The translations under genes and the position numbers were made by a program. From the NCBI GenBank assembly GCA_015066465.1, contig SVOI01000026.1, forward strand, positions 1 to 34,386: DNA of 34,386 nt, written 5' to 3'. Each line of letters opens with the position of its first letter. Position 1 is the stretch's first letter. This document shows, in pieces, positions 28,864 through 34,386 of this stretch. This DNA comes from Oscillospiraceae bacterium. Its GTDB lineage: Bacteria > Bacillota > Clostridia > Oscillospirales > Acutalibacteraceae. The notes beneath the pieces were generated by a model. That model was not told the DNA's origin. It searched no databases and saw nothing but the letters and a program-made list of their open reading frames with translations.

Positions 28864-29805
28864 TCACATCTTTTCTTTTAGCTTTCTCATCTCTTTTTTT
28901 AGACGGTTATTGCATAAAATTTCCCAAAGTGGCATTATCAAACCGCCACCCAAACGACAATGTGCTTCGTTCATTGCTCCGTAATATGCAACTCTGAAAT
29001 CTGCATATTCGGATAATTTATATTTTTCTTTGTATGTCTCATATAAACCATAAGCATCGCCCCACATATTACGAAGCTGGAATAAATCATATTCTCTATC
29101 TGCCCACATACAGGCGCACGGGTCAATAAAAGCATTAAGCTTTAATGTTTTGGGGTCTGCCATAATATTCATTATATTGAGGTCACTGTGAATGAGTACA
29201 GGCTTTGTATTTTCTTCTGGCAAGTTGTTGAAAAGCTCAGTTGCTTCTACAAGGAGTTGTAACTTTTTCTTGCTAAATTTTCCGTTGTCTGATAATTCTC
29301 TCAATGCAGCGAGCCAAGGCTCCTGCTTTTCCTTTTTATAGTATTCGTACCAAGTATCATAAACAGGATTTCCCAAAGAACCAAATCTGTCGTTTGTTAC
29401 GTTGTGCCACTGGAGCATACCTGCAACAACATCATTAGCAAATTTCCGCTTCTGCTCTTTGCTTTTAAGCAAGAATATTGGGTTTAATACGTTCTGTCCG
29501 TCAACAAAAGTCATTGCAAGGATTGCAGTTTCTTCATCCTCATAAGTGAAAAGCACTTCTGGCATCTTTACACTTGTATTTGCAGACAAAAGTTTAAGCT
29601 GCCCCGCTTCTTCATATTGCGAACCCTGTACTCGGTAAGCTTTTACAGCAATAGTTCTTTCATCGGAAAGCACAGCCTTATAAACTCTGCCAAAGCTCCC
29701 ACCACCAATAAATTTCAACTTTTCGACATTCTTACCCAATTCTTTTGAAATAATCTCTGGTAAAATGGGTAATAAGTGTTTATCGCTATTATCAAGAATT
29801 TTCAT
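28864..29805 (-). CDS. APH/fructosamine-kinase-fold phosphotransferase
   Basis: A 313-residue kinase-like protein. The glycine loop is FIGGGSFGRVYKAV, followed by the ATP lysine in TIAVKAYRV. The catalytic loop is LIHSDLNIMNIM (HxDxxxxN) and the metal Asp is in AFIDPCACMWADREYDL. This is the aminoglycoside-phosphotransferase (APH)/fructosamine-kinase superfamily pattern with all key residues present, so it should be active on a small hydroxyl- or amine-bearing molecule. The substrate is unknown. It begins two bases after the stop of the hydrolase gene, in an operon that ends with an AraC regulator, which suggests modification of a specific imported or toxic compound. Confidence 0.82.
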   Translation of the reverse strand: MKILDNSDKHLLPILPEIISKELGKNVEKLKFIGGGSFGRVYKAVLSDERTIAVKAYRVQGSQYEEAGQLKLLSANTSVKMPEVLFTYEDEETAILAMTFVDGQNVLNPIFLLKSKEQKRKFANDVVAGMLQWHNVTNDRFGSLGNPVYDTWYEYYKKEKQEPWLAALRELSDNGKFSKKKLQLLVEATELFNNLPEENTKPVLIHSDLNIMNIMADPKTLKLNAFIDPCACMWADREYDLFQLRNMWGDAYGLYETYKEKYKLSEYADFRVAYYGAMNEAHCRLGGGLIMPLWEILCNNRLKKEMRKLKEKM

Positions 29806-29807
29806 TT

Positions 29808-30731
29808 TTATTCCTCCATTATTCTTCGCTTTACTTTGTTGTATGCTGTTTTGCTTTCAGGCAGAAATGAAAACAACTGAAAGCAATGGCACATACCTTC
29901 AAATTTATGAAGTTCTACATCTACCTTTGCATCCTTCATTTTTGCATACACTCTGTCGCTATCACTCTCATCCAATTCTGCAGTTCCGCATATCAATGTA
30001 ACCTTCGGGAAGTTTTCAAAGCTACCGAACAAGGGTGAAATATAAGGGTCGGTCCTGTCAACGTTCAGAACATATTTTGATATTCTTCTTAATAAATGAA
30101 GATTATCTTCTACTTTTTTGTGCTTCGCAATTCCATAAAATGGGTCTGTATATGCATTTGTAATTTTAGAATCACCACTTGACGTTGCATCTGCCCATAA
30201 AGAAAAGCAAACTATGTGTCTGGGTAAGGGATAGTTGTTATCTCTGAGCCAAAGGCAAGATGTCATAGCCAATGTGGCACCTGCACTGTCACCAATAAAT
30301 ATAATATCTGAATTGTTAATTCCCTCATCTAATAAGTGCAAATATATTTTCACAACATCGTGCATCTGTGACGGGAGCTGATGCTCAGGAAATCTTCCGT
30401 AGTCAACATTTATTACAGTTGCACCACAGAATGTATTGCTATATTTCTCGGCAAGCTTGCGGTAAAAATCATTCAGCTCAATTTTAAATCCGCCACCGTG
30501 AATCATCAAAATAACTTTTTCAGTTTTGCAATTACTGTTTATAATTTTTTCATACTTAACTTCTTCAATGGAATGTTTTGTGTAGGTGAAATTCTTTGAT
30601 GGCTTATATCTTGACTTTTTATCTTTTGTCAGCTTTGCCACGTTGTCAGATAATTTTGAACTATCAAATAATGGAGAATGAAAAATTATACGCAAAGTTG
30701 CCATAAAGATTTTTGATGTCATAGACTGCAT
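29808..30731 (-). CDS. Alpha/beta hydrolase, HSL-type esterase
   Basis: A 307-residue esterase. The start at 30731 (MQSMTSKIF) is favoured because GGGTGATTGT precedes it; an ATG at 30743 is the alternative. It carries the oxyanion motif MIHGGGFKIEL and the nucleophile elbow IGDSAGATLAM (GDSAG), both hallmarks of the hormone-sensitive-lipase family. The acid is probably in GTAELDESDSDR, and the base His is in GMCHCFQLF near the end. It should hydrolyse short-chain or aromatic esters in the cytoplasm. It is the first gene of the operon with the APH-fold kinase and AraC genes. Confidence 0.85.
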   Translation of the reverse strand: MQSMTSKIFMATLRIIFHSPLFDSSKLSDNVAKLTKDKKSRYKPSKNFTYTKHSIEEVKYEKIINSNCKTEKVILMIHGGGFKIELNDFYRKLAEKYSNTFCGATVINVDYGRFPEHQLPSQMHDVVKIYLHLLDEGINNSDIIFIGDSAGATLAMTSCLWLRDNNYPLPRHIVCFSLWADATSSGDSKITNAYTDPFYGIAKHKKVEDNLHLLRRISKYVLNVDRTDPYISPLFGSFENFPKVTLICGTAELDESDSDRVYAKMKDAKVDVELHKFEGMCHCFQLFSFLPESKTAYNKVKRRIMEE

Positions 30732-30756
30732 ACAATCACCCATCCTTCTATTTTAA

Positions 30757-30785
30757 ATCTTATCATAAGATTTTGGAGAATTCAA
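30757..30785 (-). promoter_or_regulatory. Promoter of the esterase-kinase-AraC operon
   Basis: Minus strand -35 TTGAAT (30785-30780), 17-base spacer, -10 TAAGAT (30762-30757). Confidence 0.55.
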
Positions 30786-30839
30786 TAATTCCGAAATTTT
30801 CATATCTGCAAATCTAAACAATCAAGGAAAAATGAAAAT

Positions 30840-30869
30840 ACCGATAATCTAAAAAAATAGAATATCGGT
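30840..30869 (-). terminator. Probable terminator of the AraC-GyrI gene
   Basis: The stem ACCGATA (30840-30846) / TATCGGT (30863-30869) is followed on the minus strand by ATTTTCATTTTT. It lies between the AraC-GyrI gene and the next promoter. Confidence 0.5.
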
Positions 30870-30932
30870 GAAAAATTTGTGATTAAATTGAAATGTATTT
30901 CTATATTTCAAAATCTCCTTGTAAATAGTAAT

Positions 30933-30961
30933 CCGCATCATAGCAATCTGCTGTGATGCGG
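30933..30961. terminator. 13-bp hairpin just after the AraC-GyrI gene
   Basis: CCGCATCATAGCA / TGCTGTGATGCGG with an ATC loop. There is no clean T-run on the minus strand, so it may be an mRNA 3' end stabiliser or processing site. The outer AATCCGCA arm resembles the terminator at 26298. Confidence 0.55.
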
Positions 30962-30971
30962 AGTTTTCATT

Positions 30972-31841
30972 TCATTTTTTTACAACAGGGACCCATATTT
31001 CACTGCGGTAATCGGGGCTTCCCATATCACCTTCAGTATAAGCTTCAATATCCATTTCGTAGGTAGGTTCATAACCTGATGTTGGGAAGAATTCCGAAAC
31101 AATCTTATGCCACATATCCTGCATAGCTTTCGGCATTGCACCTTTACATTCAAACACTGCCCAAGTTCTTGCAGGAATTGTGCTTTTTCTGAAGCCTTCG
31201 GGAATTTCAGTATTTTCATCACATTTTGCCGCTATTGAATAATCAAAAGTCTTTGCGTTTTCGGGAAGATTTCCGTAACATACACCAAAAATATAAGTGC
31301 TGTCCGTTGTTAATTCAGTTAGTGTCTTAACAGTACCATTTTTGTGAGAACGTGTCCAGAAATCGGGAATACTCTTTGCATTTTCTGAATTTTCAACAGT
31401 ATGTGCTTCTATCTTTTCAATAATATCAAAAGCCTCTTTTTCTACAATTTTGTAGTCCATTATATTGCCTCCGCTTAATGTAATTTTCACAGTAAGGCGA
31501 GAAAAAGATTTGAGTTTTGAACCATCCTTTTTAGCTTCGGACGGAGTGATTCCGTGAAACCTTGTAAAAGCTCTTGTAAAACTTTCAGGACTTTCATATC
31601 CATATTTGAATGCAACATCAATTACTCTTGAATCAGAAATGCACAGCTCATTACCGGCAAGTGTAAGCCTTCTGTTTCTGATGTAGTCTCCTAAAGTAAT
31701 CCCACACAAAATACTGAAAATTCTTTGAAAATAGAATTCCGAACAAGCTGTTTCTTTTGCAACAAGCTCCATATCAATTTCATCGGTCAGATGATTCTCA
31801 ATATAGTTTATTGCATTCTGTATGCCTGTAACCCAATCCAT
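30972..31841 (-). CDS. AraC-type regulator with GyrI-like effector domain
   Basis: A 289-residue protein. ATG at 31841 (MDWVTGIQNA) is chosen because an upstream GTG at 31850 falls inside the AGAGGTG ribosome site. Residues 1-105 are the AraC DNA-binding domain, here N-terminal (MELVAKETACSEFYFQRIFS, VIDVAFKYGYESPESFTRAF, GITPSEAKK). From about 125 on is a GyrI/BmrR-type small-molecule-binding domain (YKIVEKEAFDIIEKIEAHTV; IPARTWAVFECKGAMPKAMQ; MDIEAYTEGDMGSPDYRSEI). Such proteins sense drugs or amphipathic cations, as Rob does. It diverges from the leader-controlled kinase gene at 32320, which it could regulate. Function known at family level only. Confidence 0.88.
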   Translation of the reverse strand: MDWVTGIQNAINYIENHLTDEIDMELVAKETACSEFYFQRIFSILCGITLGDYIRNRRLTLAGNELCISDSRVIDVAFKYGYESPESFTRAFTRFHGITPSEAKKDGSKLKSFSRLTVKITLSGGNIMDYKIVEKEAFDIIEKIEAHTVENSENAKSIPDFWTRSHKNGTVKTLTELTTDSTYIFGVCYGNLPENAKTFDYSIAAKCDENTEIPEGFRKSTIPARTWAVFECKGAMPKAMQDMWHKIVSEFFPTSGYEPTYEMDIEAYTEGDMGSPDYRSEIWVPVVKK

Positions 31842-31925
31842 ATCGCTCACCTCTTTGCGTGGTTACATTATAAAGCAAAGATAATATTAATACCTGACTT
31901 TTTATGCTCAATGTTGTATGGATAT

Positions 31926-31978: not shown

Positions 31979-32007
31979 TTGAAATATTATGATGATTATG
32001 CTACAAT
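31979..32007 (+). promoter_or_regulatory. Promoter of the attenuator-controlled kinase transcript
   Basis: -35 TTGAAA (31979-31984), 17-base spacer, -10 TACAAT (32002-32007). The transcript would start near 32014, so the leader to the GTG at 32320 is about 305 bases and begins with a translated short ORF. Confidence 0.68.
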
Positions 32008-32055
32008 ATATTTTAATAACTCTGCAAAAGCAGATGCCGAAAGGAGAACAATTGT

Positions 32056-32088
32056 ATGAAAGTTTTTTATGAGGTAATCGAATCTTAA
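32056..32088 (+). CDS. Leader peptide (10 residues) of the kinase gene
   Basis: ATG to TAA encodes MKVFYEVIES. It is preceded by a very strong AAAGGAGAA ribosome site (32040-32048) at good spacing, and lies about 40 bases after the predicted transcript start. A well-initiated short ORF ahead of folded RNA and terminators is the hallmark of ribosome-stalling leader peptides that control resistance genes. No close relative is recognised by eye, so the peptide may be a new example. That it is translated and stalls is inference. Confidence 0.55.
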   Translation: MKVFYEVIES

Positions 32089-32100
32089 ACTGAATATATA

Positions 32101-32265
32101 GTGCATACAATTTCGAGGTTTCGACCTCTTTGTTGTTGTGCCGTTTTAAAGTAACCTTTCGTGAATACTATAACTTTCGGTTGTAGCACACTTTAGGGTG
32201 TGTTATTTTTATATCTAAAATCAGCCGTAGGAAGTACCCACTAATGAATGGTTGCTTTCTACGGC
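32101..32265 (+). promoter_or_regulatory. Attenuator leader: UUCG hairpin, tandem terminators, alternative pairing
   Basis: Three structures lie in order. (1) A hairpin at 32103-32141 whose top is GAGGT-TTCG-ACCTC. (2) A terminator AGCACAC/GTGTGTT (32185-32204), then ATTTTTAT. (3) A terminator from GCCGTAG (32224) to CTACGGC (32265), with internal pairing, then ATTTTTG. The 3' arm of hairpin 1 holds TGTGC (32137-32141) and GCCGT (32140-32144). These can instead pair with GCACA (32186-32190) of terminator 1 or ACGGC (32261-32265) of terminator 2. A ribosome held at the leader peptide would cover the base of hairpin 1 and free that arm, favouring read-through. The base pairs are visible; the mechanism is inferred. 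Confidence 0.6.
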
Positions 32266-32319
32266 ATTTTTGCGCCCATTTTCAAATTTTTGTTAGCATA
32301 AATATTTGGAGGAATAACA

Positions 32320-33285
32320 GTGAATAAACATATAATAGAAAACAATTATAATTTGAAAGTATCTGATATACAACTTCTCGATAAGCATTTCGGTACTGAA
32401 CTTTATTTAATCAGCACAGATGTCGGAAAATACATAGTTAAAGTTCTGCCATTGCATATGGAAAATGTAAAAAATGAAGGTGAACTAACCGAGTATCTTT
32501 ATAATCACGGACTTAAAGTTGCAAGATTTATGAAAAGCAAAGAAGATGCTTACGTAGTAAAAACACCTGAATTTCAGTTTACCATTCAACAATTTATTGA
32601 AGGTGAATCGCTATCGGTAAATACTGCACCTGATTGGTTTATCAGCAAATCTGTGGACTTTCTTGGTCAGGCAGCATTACTTTTGAAAGACTATGAGGCT
32701 TTGCCATTACGATTTGGAAAAGACTTCTTTTCAACTAACATAGTTCGCAGAAAGATATGGCAATACAAAAAAGAACTTGCAAAAGCGAAAAAAGCAAAAG
32801 ATTTGGATATCATACCTGTTTGGGAAGAACAAATCCGGCATCTCAAGAAAATTTCAAAAATCCATATTGATACTAAAAAACTGACTTATGCCAATTCGCA
32901 CGGTGATTATCACATAGGTCAGGCAATTATACATAACAATGATTTTACAGTTGTTGATTGGAGTTCTGCTTGTAGGTTACCTATTTGCTTGGATGTAATA
33001 ACATCTTATGTATTTTCAAGCCCAACCTGTGCAGAAGGTAAAATTGATGTAGACGGACTGAAAAAATATATCTGGCAATTCACAGAAAAGTTTCCATTAA
33101 CCGAGTATGATATAAAATCAATGCCTTATGTTTTATATTTTTGGCACTGTATGTGTAATTATCGACCCGATGAACTTGCAGACATTCCTGACAGTTATAA
33201 AGCTATTGCTAAACTTATAAACAACTTTCTGAATTGGCTCTATGATAATGTTGAAGAATTGTCTAAAGAATTATTAAAGCACTAA
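32320..33285 (+). CDS. APH-fold phosphotransferase (possible resistance kinase)
   Basis: A 321-residue protein with a GTG start behind a TTTGGAGGAAT site. N-lobe: GTELYLISTDVGKYIVKVLP, with the ATP lysine in YIVKVLP. C-lobe: catalytic loop NSHGDYHIGQAII (HGDxH with Gln where Asn is usual) and VVDWSSACRLPICLDVITSY in the metal position. This fits the APH superfamily that includes aminoglycoside and macrolide kinases, homoserine kinase and others. The replaced Asn is unusual. Expression appears controlled by a translated leader and two terminators, as for inducible antibiotic-resistance genes, and a drug-sensor-type regulator gene lies divergent. A resistance role is a hypothesis; a house-keeping kinase is possible. 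Confidence 0.78.
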   Translation: MNKHIIENNYNLKVSDIQLLDKHFGTELYLISTDVGKYIVKVLPLHMENVKNEGELTEYLYNHGLKVARFMKSKEDAYVVKTPEFQFTIQQFIEGESLSVNTAPDWFISKSVDFLGQAALLLKDYEALPLRFGKDFFSTNIVRRKIWQYKKELAKAKKAKDLDIIPVWEEQIRHLKKISKIHIDTKKLTYANSHGDYHIGQAIIHNNDFTVVDWSSACRLPICLDVITSYVFSSPTCAEGKIDVDGLKKYIWQFTEKFPLTEYDIKSMPYVLYFWHCMCNYRPDELADIPDSYKAIAKLINNFLNWLYDNVEELSKELLKH

Positions 33286-33555: not shown

Positions 33556-33912
33556 TCATTTCATATTTTCTTTAGCAGTGTTGATAGATTTTATCAACAA
33601 AACTCTAATAGTTGAACATAGTCTATTGAGATGTTTGTACTGTTCCTCATGTATAGCCTCAGTTTTGTATAACATTTCAAGCCATTTACCTGTTTCAGAG
33701 GCTTCTTTTAGTGAAATCTGAAGTTTAGCGATAAAATCTGCTCTGCCATGTGCATATTTACTTTCTGCAATATTTGCACAAATACTTGTTGCGCTTCTGC
33801 TGATTTGATTCGAAATTACAGTTTCTCCTTGTTTTTTCAAAACTTTACACATATTTAAAACATCAACAGATAATTGCATTGATAAATCGCCAAGTTTATC
33901 TTCTTTCTTCAT
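33556..33912 (-). CDS. Four-helix bundle protein (S23-type)
   Basis: A 118-residue, wholly helical protein matching the four-helix-bundle family first known as S23, from ORFs in 23S rRNA intervening sequences. Signature stretches are QISRSATSICANIAESKYAH, then GRADFIAKLQISLKEASETG and KWLEMLYK. It probably forms a homopentamer; the biological role is not established. It stands alone with a consensus promoter, about 250 bases from the terminator of an rRNA operon. That position recalls the family's rRNA link but does not prove it. Confidence 0.88.
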   Translation of the reverse strand: MKKEDKLGDLSMQLSVDVLNMCKVLKKQGETVISNQISRSATSICANIAESKYAHGRADFIAKLQISLKEASETGKWLEMLYKTEAIHEEQYKHLNRLCSTIRVLLIKSINTAKENMK

Positions 33913-34166: not shown

Positions 34167-34241
34167 GGCGCCTCAAGTAGGACTCGAACCTACGACAACT
34201 CGGTTAACAGCCGAGTGCTCTACCAACTGAGCTATTAAGGC
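34166..34241 (-). tRNA. tRNA-Asn (anticodon GTT)
   Basis: On the minus strand, 76 bases from GCCTTAATAGCTCAGTTGGT to an encoded CCA. The acceptor stem is GCCTTAA/TTGAGGC with one wobble. The anticodon arm is CTCGG-CTGTTAA-CCGAG (anticodon GTT, Asn). The T arm is GTAGG-TTCGAGT-CCTAC. All arms are complete. It follows the 5S gene by about 30 bases and sits directly before the operon terminator. Confidence 0.96.
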
Positions 34242-34248
34242 AAATATT

Positions 34249-34268
34249 GCCGGATTAGTTTATCCGGC
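34249..34268 (-). other. Hairpin in the 5S-tRNA spacer
   Basis: GCCGGAT (34249-34255) / ATCCGGC (34262-34268) with a 6-base loop, between 5S and tRNA-Asn on the minus strand. It is too early for a terminator and has no T-run, so it is more likely an RNA processing signal. Confidence 0.55.
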
Positions 34269-34271
34269 TTT

Positions 34272-34386
<115 letters not shown>

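Follow-up and report, generated by a model that had tools for sequence, protein, structure and literature searches.

The window analysed here, a stretch of 34,386 nucleotides, carries in its last 2.4 kb a gene for a kinase of the APH fold that is preceded by a promoter, a reading frame of only ten codons and two terminator-like hairpins in tandem. Why a kinase gene should have such a leader is the question that this locus raises. A first-pass annotation had read the arrangement as a ribosome-mediated attenuator, in which a ribosome stalled on the short reading frame (ORF) melts a first hairpin, P1, whose 3′ arm is then free to pair with both terminators. This reading is right in kind and wrong in one of the two pairings, and its account of how the ribosome acts is probably wrong. 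We consider it fairly probable that the leader attenuates transcription in response to translation and belongs to a new family of such elements. As an architecture, attenuation by translation is well supported, and the leader probably turns the downstream genes on when protein synthesis is blocked.

The leader and the kinase gene

The promoter, the Shine-Dalgarno (SD) sequence, the ten-codon ORF, P1 and the tandem terminators T1 and T2 were all recovered by scanning, alignment and folding. The features are as follows, with positions in the window.

31979..32007, + strand: promoter TTGAAA-17-TACAAT with extended -10 (TG), found by the scanner
32021..32034, + strand: P0, small hairpin near the RNA 5′ end (UCUGC AAAA GCAGA), from folds
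32039..32046, + strand: SD of the leader ORF, GAAAGGAG, complementary to CCUUUCG at 32155-32161
32056..32088, + strand: leader ORF, MKVFYEVIES followed by TAA (ATG at 32056, stop at 32086-32088), conserved in kinase leaders
32073..32076, + strand: GGUA, SD-like, with constant spacing to the stop codon (most other leaders have GGUG)
about 32101..32142, + strand: hairpin P1, from the own-versus-cross test and pair counts
32140..32156, + strand: antiterminator strand 1 (GCCGUUUUAAAGUAACC), partner 32250-32265 (tested as segment 32131-32157)
32155..32161, + strand: CCUUUCG, nearly invariant in alignments, complement of the leader SD
32158..32183, + strand: antiterminator strand 2, partner the 5′ half of T2
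32184..32210, + strand: T1, intrinsic terminator-like hairpin (32184-32205) with T run, from the scanner and the own-versus-cross test
32224..32271, + strand: T2, intrinsic terminator-like hairpin (32224-32265) with T run, from hairpin score, fold and the own-versus-cross test
32320..33285, + strand: APH-fold kinase, 321 aa, GTG start (Pfam PF01636, E 5.6e-13)

The terminator scanner reported T1 and missed T2, the loop of which is longer than the scanner allows. Promoter-like sites occurred in the region without excess (12 versus 11.6 in shuffles); TTGAAA recurs in 7 of 11 aligned rows of the window and its relatives, and P0-like hairpins are found in other leaders, both judged by eye. The fold of the 317-nt leader beat 100 of 100 shuffles with a z of −3.9. 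No Rfam family matched the leader region at the gathering score, in a search that was also run at E ≤ 10. In translational attenuation of the erm/cat type the switching hairpin hides the ribosome site of the main gene; here the GGAGG preceding the kinase gene (32308-32312) lies outside T2 and inside another hairpin in the fold. The UUCG loop that had been described on P1 is real in the window but is not conserved, since the bases differ in L041, L042, L044 and L045. Many leaders carry, after both T runs, the word ATGCC(C), or one like it, as a copy of the P1 3′ arm; in the window such words lie at 32206-32219 and 32267-32278.

The kinase scored 49.6 bits against PF01636 (APH phosphotransferase), for which the curated cut-off is 23.2, and its AlphaFold model had a pLDDT of 88. 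All 12 aligned rows keep D196 and D213, in HGDYHIGQ and DWSSA, which would correspond to the APH catalytic motif HxDxxxxN and the metal-binding Asp; the Asn position of the motif is, however, an invariant Gln. Among PDB folds the model was about equally like the amicoumacin kinase AmiN, homoserine kinase, NahK and APH(9)-Ia, at 11-18% identity. Since drug and metabolic kinases score alike, no substrate follows from the fold. A sequence search of the PDB with the kinase gave no match at E ≤ 1. The adjoining region 28864-31850 encodes a second APH/fructosamine-kinase-like protein, an alpha/beta hydrolase that matches a chloramphenicol hydrolase model below its cut-off, and an AraC regulator that has a GyrI-like domain. 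The gene at 33556-33912 encodes a four-helix bundle protein that belongs to the 23S rRNA intervening-sequence family, and tRNA and 5S rRNA genes lie near it at 34169-34386.

Spread of the leader and coevolution of its hairpins

A scan of genome_contigs gave 10 relatives of the kinase with identities of 69-92%. All come from metagenome-assembled Clostridia or Oscillospiraceae, and 9 of the 10 record titles name ruminant rectum, cecum or colon. The leader lies directly 5′ of the kinase gene in the window and in 9 of these relatives. In the tenth, L043, it lies 1.2 kb upstream at 2533-2819 (blastn match 89.6%), and the order within L043:2533-4954 is leader, two RsgA-matching frames of 145 and 190 residues, i.e. 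an interrupted RsgA frame, and kinase. Judged from this gene order, the kinase of the window may derive from an RsgA-kinase operon such as that in L043. At 7 of these 10 loci the region matching the window comprised leader and kinase and neither flank, from which we infer that both travel as a unit. Within the genus the leader was present in 4 of 22 genomes, the same four that have a kinase of at least 84% identity. A 51% identical kinase in G005 (L006:1-945) stands behind a different short leader, MKSLKNNRGFNK, whose stop is followed by a hairpin (by eye), and leaders can therefore be exchanged. At L057 (G097:C12:39999-40097), which precedes a 53% identical kinase, the short frame lacks a stop and continues through T1 in the direction of the kinase; the missing stop may be real or an assembly error. 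The leader gave no blastn match to plasmids and phages, its pattern was absent from viral_contigs, and the kinase had a single weak match in plasmids, covering 32%.

Beyond these relatives, searches were done with two covariance models, R1, which spans P1 to T1, and the broader R2. At E ≤ 0.01, R1 matched 17 of the 394 genomes searched in the order; R2 matched 26 of these 394 and, in the class, 15 of 391. The pattern ACCTTTYGTGAATACT was found in 9 of 391 class genomes including the window's own, versus 3 with the reversed pattern, and in the other eight genomes the leaders precede RsgA-like genes. Given seven pattern-found leaders that it had not seen, R1 matched all seven (E 2e-9 to 0.036 in 138 kb). 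The R2 searches of order and class gave 44 distinct places, of which 4 were judged non-leaders and 2 doubtful (L087 and L090). L062, L091, L104 and L106, together with L065 from the R1 search, were dropped for lacking an SD and short ORF. One genome, G108, has five leader copies (C42, C54, C12 and C92) in an assembly with 7% contamination; they precede MutS2, ABC exporters, a PF09818 ATPase and a run of GNAT, kinase and methyltransferase. The final set consisted of 47 leaders selected by SD and short ORF. The first coevolution test used 31 of these, after 8 near-identical leaders and 8 without a clean assignment of T1 or the invariant stretch had been dropped. The segment screen and the targeted antiterminator test used 21 leaders with a clear T2, the folding and mask tests 28, and the analysis of the motif before the stop codon 40 (7 near-identical leaders dropped). 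L057 was excluded from the coevolution and stop-distance tests, having no stop in its short frame.

In alignment A7, which was fitted to the model and so leans to it, 92.1% of the cells pair and 19 of 24 pairs have changed on both sides, a result reached by 0 of 500 shuffles. A test free of this bias compared the duplex energies of arms taken from the same leader (own) with those of arms taken from different leaders (cross). It gave z values of −9.1 for P1 and −8.2 for T1 (31 leaders) and −8.8 for T2 (21 leaders). By this sequence-based measure P1, T1 and T2 coevolve. When 120 segment pairs were screened the three hairpins led, and these alone survived correction for the number of pairs. The highest of the remaining pairs, the stretch before T1 with the 5′ half of T2, gave z −3.75 and p 0.0005, which did not stay significant when corrected for 120 pairs, and the linker with the 3′ half of T2 ranked lower (z −2.6). 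Between them came the 3′ and the 5′ arm of P1, each with the upstream region of the gene (z −3.3 and −2.8), pairs without apparent meaning. The 5′ arm of P1 with the segment after T2 also gave z −2.8.

A targeted, composition-controlled test was then made on the pairing of 32131-32183 with T2 in 21 leaders. The mean energies were −10.75 kcal/mol for own and −6.77 kcal/mol for cross pairs (z −6.2, p < 0.0002). Strand 1 with the 3′ half of T2 gave z −3.1 (p 0.0018; −20.3 kcal/mol in the window) and strand 2 with the 5′ half z −4.2 (p < 0.0002). This test was not blind, as the pairing was chosen after the window fold and the screen; T2 was placed by hairpin score alone. In the window GCCGU and the invariant AAAGUAACC, together 32140-32156, pair with GGUUGCUUUCUACGGC at 32250-32265. 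The proposed pairing of the 3′ end of P1 with T2 (GCCGT with ACGGC) is thereby supported, as the end of a longer helix that includes AAAGUAACC. At the level of pairing energies, these data show that 32131-32183 can pair with both halves of T2 and replace the T2 hairpin, with T1 capping the resulting long hairpin. This potential for antiterminator pairing is well supported. For T1 itself no coevolving partner or competitor was detected in the segment tests. Pairing of the SD with CCUUUCG, two elements that hardly vary, gave p values of 0.04, 0.20 and 0.08 in three runs.

The short reading frame and the ribosome

The leader ORF is conserved among homologues: in 10 kinase leaders it has ten codons, and seven of its first eight residues are the same. 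In the 47 assembled leaders its length is 9-15 codons, a feature used in assembling them. Counted back from the stop codon, all 40 leaders examined have G at −13, while 37 have G at −12, 36 have U at −11 and 31 have G at −10. The ORFs had been picked by SD, start and stop, and the GG motif played no part in the choice. The codon at the −13 motif encodes eight different amino acids, and 32 of 32 non-ATG codons there end in G, compared with 24% GAG among the Glu codons and 29% AAG among the Lys codons in the window's genes. Since the amino acid varies where base −13 is kept, much of the conservation of the ORF appears to lie in its bases rather than in the peptide. GGUGAU is complementary to the 3′ end of 16S rRNA, and its spacing from the stop would fit a ribosome whose P site holds the last codon. 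The distance to the start of P1, measured from the first stop-codon base in 37 of 38 leaders, has a median of 13 bases and a range of 3 to 23. Stop-codon read-through or frameshifting through the leader was considered and rejected from the reading frames of a few leaders, inspected by eye.

Folding of the free RNA with realistic 5′ ends predicted, for 24 of 28 leaders, at least 5 expected pairs by which the SD-start region would hold the strand that lies between CCUUUCG and T1. The window adopted another register, with the SD pairing to CUUUCGG at 32174-32180 and CCUUUCG to bases of the start codon, not to the SD. On these predictions the start region is the likely lock of the antiterminator strand. 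When the window's leader was covered from SD to stop, T2 fell from 0.99 to means of 0.39-0.48 (5′ ends 32010-32020, range 0.16-0.83), and in the 28-leader test to 0.65; covering the start alone or the last codon alone did not lower it. Across the family the predicted thermodynamic switch is weak. The SD-to-stop mask lowered T2 by at least 0.3 in only 3 of 28 leaders (the window, L074 and L086), a mask for an initiating ribosome likewise in only 3 (L040, L074 and L108), and a mask at the last codon in none of the 28. Earlier folds had started 58-60 bases before the leader start codon and included promoter bases. Switching of the window under the initiation mask was seen in a fold from 31998, before the likely RNA start, and was gone with realistic 5′ ends. 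In the longer folds T1 was near 0 in 8 of 28 leaders, 4 of which paired the 5′ arm of T1 with the added bases; with shorter 5′ ends T1 averaged 0.65 and was near 0 in L058, L061, L074 and L076.

The attenuator would work as follows. In an unstressed cell the ribosome would complete the ten codons and depart, the start region would re-pair with the antiterminator strand, T2 would form and transcription would end before the kinase gene. Ribosomes arrested on the stretch from SD to stop, for example by a ribosome-targeting drug, would leave the strand free. It would then capture T2, and RNA polymerase would continue into the kinase gene, the product of which, to judge by the company of the gene, would protect the ribosome or inactivate such a drug. 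Counting against this scheme are the small number of leaders that respond to the masks, the register adopted in the window, the separate leader of the 51% identical kinase in G005 and the missing stop in L057.

The switch might instead sense ribosomes held at the leader stop codon, by slow termination, by slow recycling or in a queue of two, with SD-like motifs bracketing the ORF, the ribosome at the stop having its front near P1 and a second one able to stand at the start. SD-like motifs inside genes may hold ribosomes, and RsgA and MutS2, which recur under the leader, act on ribosomes. The constancy of G at −13 despite eight amino acids and the uniform G-ending codons would suit a ribosome positioned in this way, as would the response of T2 in the window to joint covering of SD through stop and not to covering of the start or last codon alone. 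However, no leader responded to the last-codon mask, and GGU also complements ACC of AACCUUUCG, so that an RNA-RNA role of the motif is possible. We regard sensing at the stop codon as unlikely.

A riboswitch or a protein-dependent antiterminator, in which the nearly invariant AACCUUUCGUGAAUACU binds a small molecule or a protein and the ORF is incidental, seems very unlikely. It would fit the very high conservation of the AACCUUUCGUGAAUACU stretch in genomes from several of the class's families, and also the weakness of the thermodynamic switch when ribosome masks are applied. On the other hand, an SD and short ORF accompany this stretch in all 47 leaders (assembled by that feature) at a fixed motif-to-stop distance, the Rfam search gave no match at the gathering score, and pairing with the start region and with T2 partly explains the conservation of AACCUUUCGUGAAUACU.

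It is highly improbable that the leader works as originally proposed, by a ribosome stalled in the ORF that melts P1 and frees its 3′ arm for T1 and T2. The complementary words exist in the window, and the pairing with T2 belongs to the supported antiterminator. Masking 32056-32105 halved P1 and lowered T2 from 0.99 to about 0.70, but shorter masks spared P1: those ending at 32098 left 6.6-9.5 of about 9 expected P1 pairs, and P1 mostly lies level with or past the leading edge of a ribosome that occupies the last codon, which makes its melting doubtful. The words proposed for T1 (TGTGC with GCACA) are mismatched, as judged by eye, in 4 of 9 aligned orthologues (L040, L044, L045 and L048). The 3′ arm of P1 with the 5′ arm of T1 gave −7.25 kcal/mol for own and −7.68 kcal/mol for cross pairs (p 0.93, and 0.96 in a second test) and was predicted at 0.04 or less in the folds of 28 leaders. 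A P1-T1 antiterminator was therefore rejected, as these segments do not coevolve and pair no better than random partners. Finally, attenuation by starvation for an amino acid, e.g. a branched-chain one, is hardly credible: counted from the stop, codon four is Val in 34 of 40 leaders and codon three Ile or Val in 25, and some peptides have short Val runs, but base −13 is kept where the amino acid is not, and the identified downstream genes are not biosynthetic.

Genes under the leader and known attenuators

An RsgA-family gene comes first after the leader at 19 places, stands behind an RNHCP-like gene (by eye) at 2 (L084 and L089) and occurs later in the same gene run at 4 (L043, G140, G304 and G108:C92); RsgA was confirmed by profile at 25 of these 25 places. 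All 16 checked genomes with the leader directly before RsgA have at least one further RsgA above the family cut-off, and the leader-linked RsgA is therefore an extra copy. The window's own genome, which is 81% complete, has one RsgA, away from the leader. An RNHCP domain continues the RsgA frame in L077 and L088 and lies beside a leader-linked RsgA at L110:1565-1954 (Pfam).

Other genes under the leader encode APH kinases (the window group, L057, L060 and L102), MutS2 (L051), ABC exporters (L066 and L068), GNATs (L067 and L108), methyltransferases (L058, and L050 with 78% identity to one in G108), a PF09818 ATPase (L069, with a degenerate leader) and a CAAX-protease-like protein (L086). This tally leaves aside L019, L063, L064, L085 and L105. 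Several types occur together in runs. In G108:C12 the leader is followed by a GNAT, a kinase 44% identical to that of the window and a methyltransferase, and in G304 by an APH, RsgA, RNHCP and a GNAT; the G304 APH had no BLASTP match to the window kinase. G108:C92 has two ABC exporters, an APH, a weak AAA_18 match and RsgA, and in G530 a kinase of 33% identity to the window's is fused to a GNAT. As far as gene annotation goes, this company is what drug inactivation and ribosome protection would lead one to expect. The initial description is right in that an attenuator-like leader, its short ORF conserved, stands before an APH-fold kinase; likely drug-modification genes keep it company.

We put forward, as a tentative and broader proposal, that such leaders form a class of ribosome-sensing attenuators in several families of gut Clostridia, in which the ORF's own SD and start serve as the anti-antiterminator and the SD-like motif near the stop positions the ribosome. 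The class may control an unrecognised set of inducible resistance or rescue genes, its core being an extra RsgA (some with RNHCP) together with APH kinases, acetyltransferases, methyltransferases, exporters or MutS2. If so, the leader would be a handle for finding uncharacterised inducible resistance genes in gut bacteria, and the extra RsgA copies would be resistance or rescue factors, as HflXr is for HflX. It would also point to a kinase family with members down to 33% identity under the same leader. The fixed distance from GG to the stop codon makes it possible to test how a ribosome takes up its position on such a short ORF. Among the matches listed in literature searches on RsgA leaders, paralogs and uORFs and on antibiotic attenuation, no description of this leader was recognised from titles and abstract openings, most subscription papers lying outside the scope.

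Three hallmarks of attenuators with an upstream ORF (uORF) are present at the level of sequence and prediction: a short ORF with an SD between promoter and terminator, a terminator before the main gene, and a potential pairing that would exclude T2. According to the excerpt available of the paper on vmlR of Bacillus subtilis (PMC9226507), a drug-stalled ribosome on the uORF blocks an anti-antiterminator there, and the present leader appears to follow the same logic of uORF, candidate anti-antiterminator, antiterminator and terminator. As described in that excerpt, vmlR has a three-codon uORF (MIN), one terminator hairpin and an ABC-F gene, whereas the present leader has ten codons, two terminators and RsgA, APH and GNAT genes, a comparison by description and not by sequence. 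The leader likewise resembles cplR of Clostridioides difficile, which in the excerpted text shows uORF-dependent premature termination in Clostridia, with a figure legend that aligns uORF and anti-SD elements (PMC10201436). Unlike the present leader, cplR is described in these parts of the paper with the uORF MRI, a terminator that hides the SD of the main gene, and an ABC-F gene.

The hflXr/rli80 switch of Listeria monocytogenes, in the sections available of PMC6310831, also combines a short uORF (14 aa) with an anti-antiterminator, an antiterminator and a terminator, and it precedes a homologue of a ribosome GTPase. It differs in having a peptide with an RLR motif and HflX, where the present family has RsgA (PMC6310831, same sections). 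The RLR motif was found in none of the 47 leader peptides. In the excerpt of PMC4191407 the bmrB leader of bmrCD in Bacillus subtilis similarly provides ribosome-mediated attenuation before an ABC exporter, but it is a leader of 53 residues that contains the terminator, whereas the present ORF has ten codons and its terminators lie outside. By analogy with these systems, as the excerpts present them, the leader appears to share the logic of the vmlR, cplR, hflXr and bmrCD attenuators, placed here before an unexpected regulon.
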